Below, piece after piece: positions 1,178-8,674 of a stretch of 11,557 nt of DNA. The notes beneath the pieces were generated by a model, which was not told the origin of the DNA, made no database searches, and saw only the letters and a list, made by a program, of their open reading frames with translations. The DNA lies in the NCBI GenBank assembly GCA_028711875.1, contig JAQTRJ010000037.1:1-11557 (forward strand). Direction: 5' to 3'. Within the stretch, counting starts at the first letter, position 1; each line of letters begins with the position of its first letter. A program made the translations under genes and the position numbers. Origin of the DNA: a bacterium. Lineage in GTDB: Bacteria; Electryoneota; RPQS01.

Positions 1178-1981
1178 TTACTGCACGATGCGCCCATGAA
1201 CAAGATACCAGATCTCGTCGCGCCTGGCGTAGAAGGCGAATTCATCGGCATAGACGAGAGGGTTCGACACGGCTTCCCCGCAGCAATGACCGTGAAAAAA
1301 CTCGTCGAAATCCGTCACCGTTTCCACACCAGCGTAATTCCAGCCTAACAGACTGTCGCGGCGAAAAAGAAAAAACGGTTTGCCGTCCAAGTAACGGTAT
1401 TCAAAGGTCCCGGAGCAATGATACCTGTCGCTCAGAAACTCGCCATTTACGATCACTTGAAATCCACGGGTTGGCGTGTATCTCTTGGTCGTATCTTCGG
1501 CATCTCGATATGCCCACGACTCGATCCACCAATCATAGCCCCGAACATAGAAGAGCGGATCTTCTGCTCCGACACAATCTCGAAATTGAAAGACAACCGT
1601 ATCGTTGCGGCAAAGCGAAAACAGGTCGCAGCTTGAGAATTCCCGATGCACCTCGCGCGTCCAGATGTTTCTATGAACATCTGAGGTCGGAGCAACCGGC
1701 CTGCCCTTGATGCTTGGCCCATCTGGTACACCGTGAAGCAGCGTGTCCTTTGAGCTAAGGGTTCCCCCTTGGGCATGAAAGCCGATCAAGTCTCTGATCG
1801 GTCTTCCCACATGCGCCTCGAACTCCATCCATCCCGGCTGCCAATAGCCAATGACGGAGTCACTCTCGATTCTCTCGACTCTCGGCAAACGGTATTCCGT
1901 GATTTCGAGTCGGCTTGGTGGCGGCTCTGCCAGAACAACGTTGCCAAGAACCAGTAGTATCAGCAACGGAAGTGGCTTCAT
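1178..1981 (-). CDS. Secreted protein of unknown function
   Basis: This is a 267-residue protein I do not recognise as a named family. Residues 1-18 form a classic signal peptide (MKPLPLLILLVLGNVVLA, cleavage after VLA), so it is probably exported to the periplasm or beyond. The mature part is rich in aromatic residues and has six cysteines near residues 118, 124, 136, 189, 233 and 234, including a CC pair near the C-terminus, which fits a disulfide-stabilised extracytoplasmic domain. The ATG is chosen because the signal peptide begins there. It lies inside the first unit of a TTCATCC heptamer tract, so the ribosome-binding region (AAGG just before ATG) is repeat-derived. The ATG is only about 28 bases beyond the RNase P RNA 3' end and no terminator lies between them, so it may be transcribed by read-through from rnpB. 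Its coding reality rests on the intact reading frame and signal peptide. Confidence 0.8.
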   Translation of the reverse strand: MKPLPLLILLVLGNVVLAEPPPSRLEITEYRLPRVERIESDSVIGYWQPGWMEFEAHVGRPIRDLIGFHAQGGTLSSKDTLLHGVPDGPSIKGRPVAPTSDVHRNIWTREVHREFSSCDLFSLCRNDTVVFQFRDCVGAEDPLFYVRGYDWWIESWAYRDAEDTTKRYTPTRGFQVIVNGEFLSDRYHCSGTFEYRYLDGKPFFLFRRDSLLGWNYAGVETVTDFDEFFHGHCCGEAVSNPLVYADEFAFYARRDEIWYLVHGRIVQ

Positions 1982-2004
1982 CCTTCATCCTTCCGCCTTC
2001 ATCC
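1977..2004. repeat. Heptamer tandem repeat, unit TTCATCC, four units
   Basis: Four exact 7-base steps are present (units at 1977, 1984, 1991 and 1998). Three are TTCATCC and the third is TTCCGCC. The tract fills the gap between the RNase P RNA 3' end and the secreted-protein gene and includes that gene's start codon. The same unit recurs at 9067-9087. Confidence 0.85.
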
Positions 2005-2009
2005 TTTTC

Positions 2010-2519
2010 TTCGAGTCCGCCGGTAAGCCGAATTCTGTCCCCTCCGTTCGCCGAGCCGGGCGTCCTCGCCCGGCCGGAATCAGGAGAGTGGCGATCATCT
2101 ATCTGGGATCGCGATTACTCGCGACCTCACGCGACCTACCCGCCGCGTCTTTCGCTCTCCGGGCAAGAGAGACTCGCGGCTTACTTGGTCTTGCTCCGGG
2201 CGGGGTTTGCCCTGCCGCGAGTGTTACCACTCGCGCGGTGCGCTCTTACCGCACCTTTTCACCCTTACCGAAGGCGAAATGAGAAACTCGAAATTAGAAA
2301 TGAGAAAGCGACAACGTTTCTTTCTAATTTCTCATTTCTGATTTCTAATTTTCTTCGCCTCCGGCGGTATCTTTTCTGTGGCACTGTCCGTTGCGTCGCC
2401 GCACCCGGCCGTTAGCCGGCGCCCTGCCCTACGGAGTTCGGACTTTCCTCAGACATGTTCGCCGCGCGGGGTCGCTGACCCCGCCGGAACCATGCCCGCG
2501 ATCGCCTGGCGGACTCGAA
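2010..2519 (-). ncRNA. rnpB: RNase P RNA (bacterial type A)
   Basis: This is the catalytic RNA of RNase P, which matures tRNA 5' ends. The conserved core is clear on the minus strand: GAGGAAAGTCCGAACTCC (2450-2433), GGGCAGGGCGCCGG, GGTAAGGGTGAAAAGGTGCG followed by GTAAGAGCGCACCGC (about 2269-2236), GGTAACACTCGCGGCAGG, AGATAGATGATCGCC, and ACAGAATTCGGCTTACCGG at the 3' end. Helix P1 closes the molecule perfectly: 2508-2519 pairs with 2010-2021 over 12 bp. Ends are set by P1 and could be off by a few bases. At ~510 nt it is longer than the usual 350-400. The extra length includes a heptamer-repeat palindrome in helix P12 (2280-2352), a long P3 arm ending in a perfect 8-bp hairpin (2466-2484), and a perfect 8-bp hairpin (2055-2074) where many bacteria carry P19. 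I found no clear promoter or terminator. Confidence 0.96.
2280..2352. repeat. Heptamer palindrome inserted in helix P12 of RNase P RNA
   Basis: Read on the plus strand, the left arm is a run of 7-base units of type TNAGAAA and the right arm a run of type TTTCTNA, about four units each, around a short GC-containing loop (GCGACAACG). The arms are imperfect reverse complements, so in the RNA they extend helix P12 as a long hairpin. The ordinary P12 base is intact on both sides: CCGAAGGCG (2269-2277) pairs with CGCCTCCGG (2356-2364), with one G-U. A close relative of this element occupies 3863-3940. Confidence 0.88.
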
Positions 2520-2713: not shown

Positions 2714-3094
2714 TTAATCCCCCAACAGGTGCAGCAACGCTTCGCGCAATCTCAAACTCACATCCACCACATCCTTCGCTTCCTCGAAGTCCGCCGTCTC
2801 CCCGGGATACCGGAAGTCCACCGCCGCCCGCGTCAACAACTGCAAATCCTCTTTGTCTGCCGTCCAATCGGAACAAACCGGCCGCAGCAATTCATCCAAC
2901 GCCAGCAACCGATGCGTTTTCGGCGGCATGACTCCCACATGAATCAGCAGCGCCTTCATGAGCTTTTCGACTCCCTGCTGCGCGTGAAAACAGACGGCAT
3001 CGTAGTTGGGATAGTCGGTCACCTGCAACTCGCGCTTGGCTGTCGCGAAATCCGCCTCCGCTTTGTCCACCCACTCCTTAACCGTTTCGTTCAT
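2714..3094 (-). CDS. HEPN domain protein, partner of the adjacent nucleotidyltransferase
   Basis: This 126-residue all-helical protein belongs to the HEPN group encoded next to minimal nucleotidyltransferases (COG2250/PF05168-like). The family hallmark FHAQQGVEKLMKALL, followed by PPKTHRLLALDELL, is plain in the middle, and RYPGE comes near the C-terminus. The start is ATG at 3094, not the alternative codon at 3115, because GGGGGAAGG sits about 6 bases before it. It overlaps the nucleotidyltransferase reading frame by 17 bases, so the two are translationally coupled. Such pairs are often toxin-antitoxin modules, with HEPN as RNase and the partner as AMP-transferase. However, I do not see the R-X4-6-H catalytic motif of HepT-type toxins here, so RNase activity should not be assumed. 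A tolerance or regulatory role is equally possible. Confidence 0.88.
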   Translation of the reverse strand: MNETVKEWVDKAEADFATAKRELQVTDYPNYDAVCFHAQQGVEKLMKALLIHVGVMPPKTHRLLALDELLRPVCSDWTADKEDLQLLTRAAVDFRYPGETADFEEAKDVVDVSLRLREALLHLLGD

Positions 3095-3395
3095 AGAGAA
3101 CCTTCCCCCGGTCAAGGGCTTCTCGAATCAGCGGATCGCCTTCGGCATAGCGGCGTTGGGTGTCCTCGGGACGGCGCGCGATAATATCCACGTCGAAAGA
3201 CGGCTTGCATTTCCTCCAAATCTCCAGCGACTTGCGGAAACCGCGTCCCTCGAACGGCATAATGACCAGCAAGTCCACGTCCGATTCGCGCCGCGGAACC
3301 CCGTAAGCATACGATCCGAACAGCACGATCTTTTCCGGCTGATATTCCCGTGCGATCCGATGCGATAATTCCTGGATGGCGGCTATACTGACCAT
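3078..3395 (-). CDS. Minimal nucleotidyltransferase (MNT / MntA-like)
   Basis: This 105-residue pol-beta-fold nucleotidyltransferase carries the family signature GSYAYG (residues 27-32) followed by SDVDLLV (38-44). D39 and D41 are the metal ligands, and FDVDII (67-72) supplies the third carboxylate at D70. The catalytic set therefore looks complete. In studied MNT-HEPN pairs the enzyme AMPylates its HEPN partner and neutralises it. The ATG at 3395 gives the normal family length, although its ribosome-binding site is weak. It lies 42 bases downstream of the RNase HI stop in the same direction and overlaps the HEPN start by 17 bases, so all three could share a transcript. A small hairpin (3422-3434) lies in the gap without a T-run. 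Confidence 0.9.
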   Translation of the reverse strand: MVSIAAIQELSHRIAREYQPEKIVLFGSYAYGVPRRESDVDLLVIMPFEGRGFRKSLEIWRKCKPSFDVDIIARRPEDTQRRYAEGDPLIREALDRGKVLYERNG

Positions 3396-3437: not shown

Positions 3438-3863
3438 CTAGTTTTTCTGTGCATCCATCGCCTGATTCACCAGCTTGTCCGCTTCCTTATTCTTCTCCCG
3501 CGGAACGTGGCGGATGCGCAGCGCGAACGGCAATTCGTCTTTGACCTTCTGCACGTCGTCGTAGAGCGCGCGCAGTCGCGGCTCCTTGATCTTCCATTTG
3601 CCGGTGATCTGCATGACGAGCAGCGTGCTGTCCGAGCGGACATGCAGCGTCTTGGCTCCACTCGCCCGCAGCACCGGATCGCTCGCGCATTTTTCAAGCA
3701 AATGGATCAGCGCCTGATACTCGGCCTCGTTGTTGGTGGCGTGGCCGATGGTCTTCCCCTCTTCGAACAGCACGTTGCCGTCCGCGTCCCGCACGACCAC
3801 CCCGATCGCCGCCGGGCCCGGATTCCCGCGCGCCCCGCCGTCAATGAAAGCGAAGATATCCAA
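3438..3863 (-). CDS. rnhA: Ribonuclease HI family protein
   Basis: This 141-residue RNase H-fold enzyme would cleave the RNA strand of RNA-DNA hybrids such as R-loops and primers. The four catalytic acids are in place: D8 (IDGGARGNPGP), E48 (TNNEAEYQAL), D78 (VRSDSTLLV) and D129 (NKEADKLV), with the active-site histidine H119 (RIRHVPRE). It lacks the basic insertion of the E. coli enzyme, as in the shorter COG0328 proteins common outside proteobacteria. The start is a TTG at 3863. The frame is closed by an upstream stop, and the family normally has only one or a few residues before this segment. The TTG is the last bases of a heptamer-repeat element that fills the whole upstream spacer, and no Shine-Dalgarno sequence is visible. 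The zinc-ribbon gene precedes it, a pairing seen in many genomes. A decayed copy of its 3' end lies at 2630-2710. Confidence 0.93.
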   Translation of the reverse strand: MDIFAFIDGGARGNPGPAAIGVVVRDADGNVLFEEGKTIGHATNNEAEYQALIHLLEKCASDPVLRASGAKTLHVRSDSTLLVMQITGKWKIKEPRLRALYDDVQKVKDELPFALRIRHVPREKNKEADKLVNQAMDAQKN

Positions 3864-3940
3864 ATTAGAAATGAGAAATGAGAAACGAGAAAACAGAAAT
3901 CACAGCATTTTTCTCATTTCTAATTTCTGGTTTCTCATTT
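3863..3940. repeat. Heptamer palindrome filling the zinc-ribbon/RNase HI spacer
   Basis: The left arm has five 7-base units of the type TNAGAAA, then a short loop near 3900, then four units of the type TTTCTNA/TTTCTGG. The arms are near reverse complements, so the transcript can form a long AU-rich hairpin. The element runs from the rnhA start codon to the stop codon of the zinc-ribbon gene, leaving no other spacer sequence. It shares AAATTAGAAATGAGAAA exactly with the element inside rnpB. Confidence 0.88.
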
Positions 3941-6885: not shown

Positions 6886-6940
6886 CATTCCGGTTTTGTT
6901 GGTTTGTCGAGGTTGTCCGGCACTCGACATTCTTCGCCGA

Positions 6941-7164
6941 GGCACCCGTCCTCGGGTGCCCGGAATCCTTCCGTCTTGTAGGGGCCGATTTATCGCGCCC
7001 GATTCATGCGTAGCGCTGCACTGCTGTGCGCCACTTCCCGCGGCGGCGAATCTCCCGATTCGCCCCACTTATTTCCCACTCTGTAGCGGCGCGATTCATC
7101 GCGCTCGTCTGTGGTTTCATCCCGACGTTTCGGGATGTTCTGTAGGGGCCGATTCATCGCGCCC
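6941..7164. repeat. Cluster of small palindromic hairpin repeats
   Basis: This 320-base gap between the secreted repeat protein and the DUF5020 gene is nearly all short hairpins. GGCACCCG/CGGGTGCC (6941-6960, loop TCCT), GGCGAATC/GATTCGCC (7045-7064, loop TCCC) and CATCCCGA/TCGGGATG (7118-7137, loop CGTT) are perfect 8-bp stems. Three units of the form GTAGNGGCNCGATTYATCGCGC lie near 6979, 7083 and 7142. A CGTAGCGCTGCACTGCTGTGC unit (7010-7030) leads into a 41-base stretch (7027-7067) identical to 9383-9423. No promoter or gene was recognised in it. Confidence 0.8.
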
Positions 7165-7207: not shown

Positions 7208-8674
7208 TTACTTCAAGAGCACCATCTTCCTCGTCTGCACAAATCCGTCCGTTTGCATACGGTACAAATACACTCCCGAAGCCAAACCCGATCCTTCGAA
7301 AACCACCGTGTGCATCCCCGCCGCTTGCACTTCATCCACCAAACTCGCCACTTCCTCTCCGAGGAGATTGAAGACCGCCAGCGTCACCCGGCTCGCTTTC
7401 GGCAGTTCATACCCAATCTGCGTCGTTGCATTGAAGGGATTCGGAAAATTCGGATGAAGCACGTACTCTTTCGGCGCAATCACGGAAATCGGCTCCGCGT
7501 CCAATTGATCCGGCCCCGTCTTCACCAGATAAAAATCAGTTTGGCCCGCGCCGAAAGACATGGTAGCACCCGCGATAATATAGCCTCCGTCGGCAGTCGG
7601 CTGAACGGAAAAAGCTCGGTCATCTCTATCCCCCCCATAGGTGCGCGTCCAGAATGTATCCCCTTGGCTATTCGTTTTTACCAACCAGCTATTCACCCAA
7701 GTTGGGGTACCCAAGCCGAAAGAGGTGGTAGATCCCGCGACAATATACCCACCATCAGCCGTCTGCCGAACGGAAAAGGCCTCCTCTCCATTGCTTCCCC
7801 CATAGGTGCGCGTCCATAGTGTGTCGCCTTGACTGTTTGTCTTCACAAGATAGAAATCTTCCGAGCCGGTAACAAAAGAATAGGTGTATCCTGCCACGAC
7901 ATAGCCTCCGTCGGTGGTCTGTTGAACGGAAAAAACGTCATCCCAATCGCTTCCTCCATACGTGCGCGTCCATAGCGTATCACCGAGGCTGTCCACCTTC
8001 ACCATATAGATGTCGGTGGACCCCGCACCGAAAGACTCGGTATGTCCCGCCACAATATAGCCGCCGTCCTCCGTCTGCTGAACGGAATAGGCCCAGTCCC
8101 AACTGCTCCCGCCATATGTACGCGTCCACAACGTGTCCCCCAAATTATCCGTCTTCACAACATAGAAATCATAGTACCCCGCGCCAAAAGACATGGTCCG
8201 CCCCGCAACGACATTGCCTCCATCCGTCGTCTGCTCAATGGAAAAAGCCTCTTCAACATTGCCCCCTCCATAGGTGCGTGTCCACAGTGAGTCTCCTTGG
8301 CTGTTTGTCTTCACCAAGTAGAAATCATCTTCGCCCGCACCGAAAGAATCGGTCCATCCCGCCACGACATAGCCTCCGTCGCTGGTCTGCTGAACAGAAT
8401 AGGCTTCTTCGTCGTCACTCCCCCCATACATCCGCGTCCAAAGCGTGTCCCCTTGGCTATTCGTCTTCACAAGATACATATCATATCCGCCTGTACCAAA
8501 GGAACTGGTGTATCCTGCTATGATATAGCCTCTGTCGGTTGTCTGCTGAACAGAATGGGCGCGATCATAGTCGCTCCCCCCATAAGTGCGCGTCCACAGC
8601 GTGTCGGGATAGGGCTGCGCCCACGCCGTGACCAGAAAAGAAATCGTAAGAAAAAGAATAGTGATCGCCTTCAT
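7208..8674 (-). CDS. Secreted seven-repeat (beta-propeller-like) protein with type IX-type C-terminal domain
   Basis: This 488-residue protein begins with a signal peptide (residues 1-19, cleavage after TAWA). Residues 24-390 are seven near-identical repeats of 52 residues (the sixth is 55), each running DTLWTRTYGGS, SVQQTTDGGYIVAG, SFGAG, DFYLVKTNSQG. Seven such units suggest a seven-bladed beta-propeller. Residues ~400-488 form the C-terminal sorting/FlgD-like Ig domain with FPNPFN (410-415), FNLLGEEV, GMHTVVFEG, ASGVYLYRMQ and a final RKMVLLK, typical of type IX secretion cargo or cell-surface proteins in FCB bacteria. The start ATG has GGGGAG 8 bases upstream, and a good promoter lies at 8705-8733. 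The ligand or role is unknown. Similar proteins occur in multi-copy families, and recombination between the 156-bp DNA repeats could change blade number. Confidence 0.93.
   Translation of the reverse strand: MKAITILFLTISFLVTAWAQPYPDTLWTRTYGGSDYDRAHSVQQTTDRGYIIAGYTSSFGTGGYDMYLVKTNSQGDTLWTRMYGGSDDEEAYSVQQTSDGGYVVAGWTDSFGAGEDDFYLVKTNSQGDSLWTRTYGGGNVEEAFSIEQTTDGGNVVAGRTMSFGAGYYDFYVVKTDNLGDTLWTRTYGGSSWDWAYSVQQTEDGGYIVAGHTESFGAGSTDIYMVKVDSLGDTLWTRTYGGSDWDDVFSVQQTTDGGYVVAGYTYSFVTGSEDFYLVKTNSQGDTLWTRTYGGSNGEEAFSVRQTADGGYIVAGSTTSFGLGTPTWVNSWLVKTNSQGDTFWTRTYGGDRDDRAFSVQPTADGGYIIAGATMSFGAGQTDFYLVKTGPDQLDAEPISVIAPKEYVLHPNFPNPFNATTQIGYELPKASRVTLAVFNLLGEEVASLVDEVQAAGMHTVVFEGSGLASGVYLYRMQTDGFVQTRKMVLLK

Follow-up and report, generated by a model that had tools for sequence, protein, structure and literature searches.

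A heptamer hairpin in P12 of RNase P RNA

The DNA analysed here, a stretch of 11,557 nt that we call the window, carries a complete class-A rnpB gene on the minus strand (2008–2517), which cmscan assigns to RF00010 by a full-length covariance match (model positions 1–367, 303.9 bits against a gathering score of 100, E = 3.1e-99). It is the single RF00010 match in the window's assembly (genome G000, 91.8% complete). Between rnpB and an RNase H-like gene lie, also on the minus strand, a HEPN gene (2714–3115) and a nucleotidyltransferase gene (3078–3395) that overlap, both identified with Pfam; we take them to resemble a HEPN/MNT toxin–antitoxin pair, and they occupy the place where two relatives, G001 and G009, have a Y1_Tnp gene beside rnpB.

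Within rnpB, an insertion of 77 nt separates positions 136 and 137 of the covariance model, in the apical loop of P12, and the flanking P12 pairs are kept. The whole extension, from the conserved GCC to GGT, is 93 nt long (2270–2362, minus strand). In the RNA, the 5′ arm of the hairpin consists of four TNAGAAA heptamers (2319–2352, minus strand), and the 3′ arm, as delimited by the sequence and the predicted pairing, of TTTCTNA heptamers with one variant unit, TTTCGAG (2280–2308, minus strand). The heptamer insertion of about 73 bases at 2280–2352 that a preliminary description had reported is real, the arms together spanning 2283–2352 according to a de novo array caller, and its proposed seat in P12, above a base that still pairs, is borne out by the covariance search, which maps it within P12 and not outside. 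The 113-nt P12 region (2265–2377) has a predicted fold of −40.9 kcal/mol (z = −5.6), as good as that of 0 of 200 dinucleotide shuffles, and lag-7 identity inside the arms reaches the lowest p value that 20,000 shuffles allow (5e-5; row L019). Pairing between the arms is interrupted by mismatches every few pairs, many of them at the variable N. The gene contains two further palindromic inserts: a GC-rich 25-nt insertion in P3 that is similar to a REP-like repeat (2463–2487, minus strand, from the cmscan alignment) and, in the variable region near the 3′ end, a P19-region repeat of the form ATTCCGGC-palindrome-CTCGGCG (2048–2080, minus strand), which fits the REP-like pattern.

Heptamer arrays elsewhere in the genome

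Three tandem copies of TNAGAAA occur 49 times in G000 (21 forward, 28 reverse), 2 of these in P12, against 0 for a reversed-pattern control. The insertion has two features of the STRR class: it sits inside rnpB, by its placement in the P12 loop, and is built of tandem heptamers with many genomic copies. A second TNAGAAA hairpin, found by the array caller, lies in the window between the RNase H-like and CT398/Zn-ribbon genes (3859–3936; genes by Pfam), and a pattern search located a GGATGAA/GGCGGAA heptamer array directly past the rnpB 3′ end (1977–2004, minus strand); GGATGAA ×2 is found 18 times in G000, one of them just beyond that end (1977–1990). Among 33 clusters of TNAGAAA ×2 in the window and 20 contigs selected for containing TNAGAAA matches, 4 are two-armed by strict units. 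Some one-armed TNAGAAA arrays of G000 (L201 5600–5627, L202 2791–2818, L216 2248–2275) stand beside or between the halves of another hairpin, about ATTCTGGAC..GTCCAGAAT.

A stricter version of the de novo caller, applied to 152 kb of round-numbered (random) contigs of G000, returned two arrays each at lags 6, 7 and 8. In 400 kb of one G002 contig, six lag-7 arrays, one of them that of P12, compared with one each at lags 6, 8 and 9; 250 kb of G001 gave five lag-7, two lag-8 and two lag-9 arrays, and 200 kb of Spirosoma G082 gave five lag-7 and two lag-10 arrays. No lag-7 array was called in 400 kb of G007 or in 200 kb of Spirosoma G101, both of which have no P12 insert, and shuffled controls of the G000, G002 and G007 stretches yielded 0 lag-7 arrays.

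P12 repeat units differ among relatives

RF00010 was matched in 57 of 61 genomes, and 50 of these rnpB genes were examined (30 + 20 loci). Lag-7 periodicity at p ≤ 0.01 in sliding 35-nt windows was confined to six of them (G000, G001, G002, G003, G006 and G008) and, within these, to P12; the P12 of G008 also reaches lag 6 (p = 0.007). In the window's family, rnpB was detected in 10 of 11 genomes, whose P12s comprise six heptamer hairpins (extensions of 89–105 nt), one other palindrome and three short forms (G005, G007 and G010). Four or five unit types are used by the six hairpins, and they differ even inside one genus: TNAGAAA in G000 and GGATGAA in G001 of the same genus, ACTTGAA-type units in G002 and G006, NTATGAA in G003, and TNARAAA, close to the window's unit, in G008. 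The other palindrome, in G009, is GC-rich and non-heptameric, and was missed by our survey pattern for P12 extensions of 61–121 nt; outside the family, G012 (same order) has a long P12 that is likewise a non-heptamer palindrome, and the P12s of the more distant G024 and G033 (same phylum) are long but non-periodic. Heptamer hairpins make up six of the seven long P12s of relatives that match the survey pattern, G012 being the seventh, so unrelated non-repeat extensions are not the rule. A tree of the family's rnpB cores (13 sequences, without G009 and G016, both missed by the P12 pattern) is poorly resolved except for the insert-less clade G005+(G007,G010), with support 100.

The P12 unit was found again elsewhere in the genome in G000, G001, G002 and G006. 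Across the 11 family genomes, TNAGAAA ×3 occurs 49 times in G000, 9 each in G001 and G009, 6 in G010, 3 in G008, 2 each in G003 and G006, and 0 in the other four; counts of GGATGAA ×2 are 113 in G008, 62 in G001, 58 in G003, 55 in G006, 45 in G009, 18 in G000, 16 in G004, 8 in G005, 6 in G002 and 0 in G007 and G010. ACTTGAA ×2 numbers 54 in G002 (41 in one long array), 6 in G003, 3 each in G004 and G006, 1 in G007 and 0 in the rest, with 1 match of the reversed control (G010), and TATGAA ×3 numbers 5 in G005, 4 in G002, 4 in G003 (3 of them in P12), 1 in G004 and 0 in the rest. P12 thus tends to carry a unit already used by the genome, though not strictly its commonest.

Filled and empty P12 sites in Spirosoma

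In the genus of Spirosoma fluviale, rnpB is present in all 36 genomes examined. P12 is long (76–198 nt) in 26 of them, 24 of these inserts measuring 76–115 nt, and short in 10, seven of which have the bare tetraloop GCC-GAAA-GGT. At p ≤ 0.001, 17 of the 26 long P12s are 8-periodic and 6 are 7-periodic, and none is periodic at lags 5, 6, 9 or 10; the remaining three are G084 (p = 0.0025, lag 8), G109 (0.01) and G091 (0.07, both lag 7). On a tree built from the rnpB core alone, four sister pairs differ in P12 state: G101 (short) and G083 (long), with support 100, G092/G112 (100), G099/G097 (88) and G095/G114 (82). Parsimony on the maximum-likelihood tree requires 9 changes between short and long, about equal to the mean for shuffled labels (9.0), and P12 state is therefore not conserved along this tree; collapsing weak branches also gives 9 changes, with polytomies treated as hard, so this is not a lower bound. 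In a list of the 25 most similar pairs, likeness of the long inserts is 91–97% in five pairs whose cores are 95–99% alike, 88% in G072/G104 (core 89%) and 51% in G094/G107 (core 96%). An octamer pattern from P12 of Spirosoma was not found outside rnpB in the approximately 556 kb searched.

Periodic P12s in several phyla

The survey pattern, designed to avoid the cyanobacterial form of the 3′ flank, gave 119 stretches from named organisms among the matches listed, including S. arboris HMF4905, S. telluris HMF3257, S. fluviale DSM 29961 and S. utsteinense LMG 31447. Judged by 20,000 within-arm shuffles, 18 of these listed P12s are periodic at lag 7 and 6 at lag 8 (p ≤ 0.001); lags 3–6 and 9–13 account for at most 2 each, and lag 14 for 14. 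By the orders and genera named in their record titles, the 24 periodic P12s so listed belong to Planctomycetota (14), Bacteroidota (5; four Spirosoma, one Flavobacterium), Deltaproteobacteria (3), Nitrospirae (1) and Acidobacteria (1).

In the rest of the surveyed genes, 17 periodic windows in 13 loci fall outside P12, some of them in the 5′ flank; at a threshold of about p = 0.01 per gene and lag, 2 or 3 such windows would arise by chance. Located by their position relative to conserved motifs, those within rnpB lie in P3 (L122, L156), in the stretch before CACAGAAA (L112, L082) and in the P16/17 region (L184, L120); in the L122 RNA, GGATGAA units in P3 coexist with CGCGGAA-type units in P12. 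Counts of GGATGAANGATGAA in 23 of the 24 genomes with periodic loci (that of L107 was left out) are 51 for L184, 39 for L122, 32 for L156, 23 for L134 and at most 5 for the other 19; GGATGAA is thus frequent in the L122 and L156 genomes, whose rnpB genes carry it. Recurrence of P12 11-mers elsewhere in their own locus (count of at least 3) did not separate the classes, being found for 6 of the 24 periodic P12s and for 16 of the 95 that are not periodic.

A common architecture and polarity

The hairpins are alike in architecture, not in sequence: they have units of 7 or 8 nt, are mostly 75–115 nt long and place the purine-rich arm first. In 26 of 30 periodic inserts, the left arm matches the reverse complement of the right more closely in register than at an offset of one unit, a result that selection for pairing would equally be expected to give; in the window's insert the preference is nearly absent (0.40 versus 0.37). 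Of 50 periodic inserts, 47 have the higher purine content in their 5′ arm, compared with 30 of 95 non-periodic ones. By group, this polarity holds for 6 of 6 inserts in the window's family, 17 of 20 from named organisms other than Spirosoma, and 24 of 24 in Spirosoma, which are related species and from which G109 and G091 were omitted as not periodic. Outside rnpB, all 12 two-armed heptamer hairpins in the G000, window, G002 and G082 stretches are purine-first, as are 18 of 22 in named loci when those in rnpB are included, and at least 16 adjacent opposite-strand pairs of GGATGAA matches less than 150 bp apart, among the matches listed, all run plus then minus as judged by eye. No shared central or loop motif rose above the shuffled level in 30 periodic P12 inserts. 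On this evidence, and with units that differ between genomes, the P12 hairpin shows no conserved REP sequence or fixed ends.

REP-like repeats and Y1_Tnp genes

The family also has a distinct set of REP-like repeats, which occur, in exact or similar form, in the rnpB of relatives as well: in P19 of G001, P3 and P19 of G002, P3 and P12 of G009, and P12 of G012. Matches to the REP-like pattern, whose wide gap lets in chance matches, number 61 in G000, 168 in G002, 121 in G006 and 2 each in G007 and G008. Y1_Tnp (RAYT-like) genes occur in 10 of 11 family genomes; one adjoins rnpB in G001 (L015 2099–2587, minus strand) and in G009 (L020 946–1410, plus strand), and REP-like repeats flank two Y1_Tnp genes among the matches listed (G010:C2, G002:C7). 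In the window, a REP-like palindrome with the same ATTCCGG/TCGGCGA ends as the P19-region repeat also lies near 6950 (6934–6966, minus strand).

Comparison with known repeats

The STRR heptamers of cyanobacteria reportedly sit in P12 of rnpB. In the parts available of two later papers, Vioque 1997 (NAR 25:3471) is cited for STRR repeats in rnpB of heterocyst-forming cyanobacteria (PMC2858038, PMC4046671) and, in PMC2858038, for P12 being sometimes dispensable there. Like the window, these cases have an RNase P RNA gene that contains tandem heptamers. The present hairpins differ in lying outside cyanobacteria, in having 8- as well as 7-nt units, in changing unit within a genus, in alternating at a defined site with bare-tetraloop forms within a genus, and in their common, scored polarity. 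Among the publications listed we found no non-cyanobacterial case of P12 repeats, though such cases may have been published.

Heptamers are reported to outnumber other long simple repeats in most of the genomes examined, and polymerase slippage has been proposed as their source (Mrazek 2007, as reported in parts of PMC4679880 and PMC4692102). Those intergenic arrays share the dominance of 7-nt units with ours; as described there, they are direct repeats near genes, whereas the rnpB repeats pair into two-armed hairpins within an essential RNA that codes for no protein. TAACTGA direct repeats, known from Beggiatoaceae, Cyanobacteria and Bacteroidetes, are likewise one-unit heptamers scattered genome-wide and over phyla, and the L082 rnpB has TAACTG-type units; in the available part of their description (PMC4679880), they precede start codons and comprise 170 sets with 1 inverted, and so are mostly one-armed, unlike the P12 hairpins. 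REP/REPIN elements with their RAYT transposases (PMC3116915, seen in part) are palindromic dispersed repeats, to which the family's REP-like repeats and Y1_Tnp genes, found even in or beside rnpB, correspond. Unlike REP/REPIN, the P12 heptamer hairpin has neither fixed REP ends nor a conserved core sequence.

Origin and tolerance of the hairpins

We propose that P12 of the window ends in an STRR-class hairpin and that such hairpins appear, disappear and change at the outward helix tips of rnpB, above all P12, in several phyla, as near-neutral products of slippage and template switching (probability about 0.72). STRR in rnpB is then best read as a process that is widespread and recurs at a helix tip where insertions are tolerated; relatives often differ in hairpin presence and sequence, and P12 therefore looks like a tolerated address. 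By extending P12 along its own axis, the hairpin would not disturb the conserved core, and the gene could stay functional; the RNA presumably works and retains the insert, which is probably near-neutral. Replication slippage in units of 7–8 nt would be the most likely origin, with template switching keeping the arms complementary; these two processes would explain the unit length and the mirrored arms, and the tolerance of P12 would explain where survivors are seen. In some genomes the P12 hairpin may have been seeded by arrays elsewhere; the evidence speaks for dispersal in some genomes, though Spirosoma provides no such support. The preliminary description had left a choice between an independent case of the cyanobacterial arrangement and a wider mobile repeat class using P12 as a neutral site. 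The data favour the wider class, through the unit differences in one genus, the Spirosoma sister pairs and the 24 periodic P12s among the 119 listed; mobility and neutrality we infer. A bolder version, which we offer tentatively and would sooner doubt than assert, is that architecture itself defines a bacterial repeat class, namely two-armed hairpins with the purine-rich arm leading, built of units of 7 or 8 nt and in most cases about 75–115 nt long, which a replication-linked process would repeatedly write, rewrite and erase at helix tips, with P12 as the most visible essential-gene address across phyla.

Several observations count against our preferred explanation: the equal rarity of strong lag-6, lag-7 and lag-8 arrays in random G000 contigs, the confinement of the Spirosoma octamer to rnpB in the sequence searched, the weak register preference of the window's insert, and, among unit counts, the greater abundance of GGATGAA in G008, which has another P12 unit, than in G001, the single occurrence of TATGAA ×3 outside P12 in G003, and the 23 GGATGAA pairs in the L134 genome, whose P12 unit is different. 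Some of this would suit a purely local origin, in which slippage and intrastrand template switching built each hairpin at P12 and no sequence passed between loci, array matches merely reflecting a shared mutational bias: the Spirosoma octamer, the two different units in the one L122 RNA and the mirroring of the arms in register all fit. We nevertheless regard it as unlikely, if the most credible of the rivals, since TNAGAAA ×3 is so abundant in G000, whose P12 has the exact unit, versus at most 9 copies in any of the 10 other family genomes, and since the L122 and L156 genomes are in the top three of 23 for their own rnpB unit.

Close sister species with a 4-nt loop and a 100-nt hairpin at one site make it improbable that selection favours a long P12 for its role in folding, stability or protein contact, the repeats serving only as raw material. 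The clustering of lengths, at 89–105 nt in six family genomes and 76–115 nt in most long Spirosoma P12s, and a predicted helix that stays straight and paired speak for such selection, but two-armed hairpins elsewhere are similar in length, which may thus belong to the repeat class. Slimmer still are the chances of two further explanations. In the first, a transposase, for example one of the family's Y1 enzymes, would have moved a REP- or MITE-like element into P12, a view that draws on the distribution of Y1_Tnp, including its place beside rnpB in G001 and G009, and on the REP-like repeats inside rnpB and flanking some of these genes; the transposase is tied to that other repeat class, however, the heptamer hairpins have no fixed ends or common motif, and G010 and G005 have Y1_Tnp but no P12 hairpin. 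Intervening sequences in 23S rRNA are hairpins cut out by a double-strand RNase, and by analogy the P12 hairpin might be excised to leave a two-piece RNase P RNA, as long uninterrupted duplexes in some inserts (for example, L156) would allow; the P12 of the window and several others are mismatched every few pairs, which argues against it.

On our preferred reading, a phenomenon cited from cyanobacteria becomes a comparative system in which, within one genus, the empty site can be recognised (GCC-GAAA-GGT) and filled sites take many forms. With both at one site, direct tests become possible of how bacterial heptamer repeats arise and how well an essential ribozyme tolerates insertions. In such groups, the length of rnpB and the structure of its P12 make unreliable markers for taxonomy.

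Minor features of the window

Farther along the window, a minus-strand gene (7208–8674) encodes a repeat protein in which Pfam identifies DUF5122 propeller repeats and, at the C terminus, a Por secretion domain. Two ACACGC..GCGTGT palindromes lie beside the 5′ end of rnpB (2532–2547 and 2577–2598), and a similar palindrome occurs in P3 of G001 and G006.
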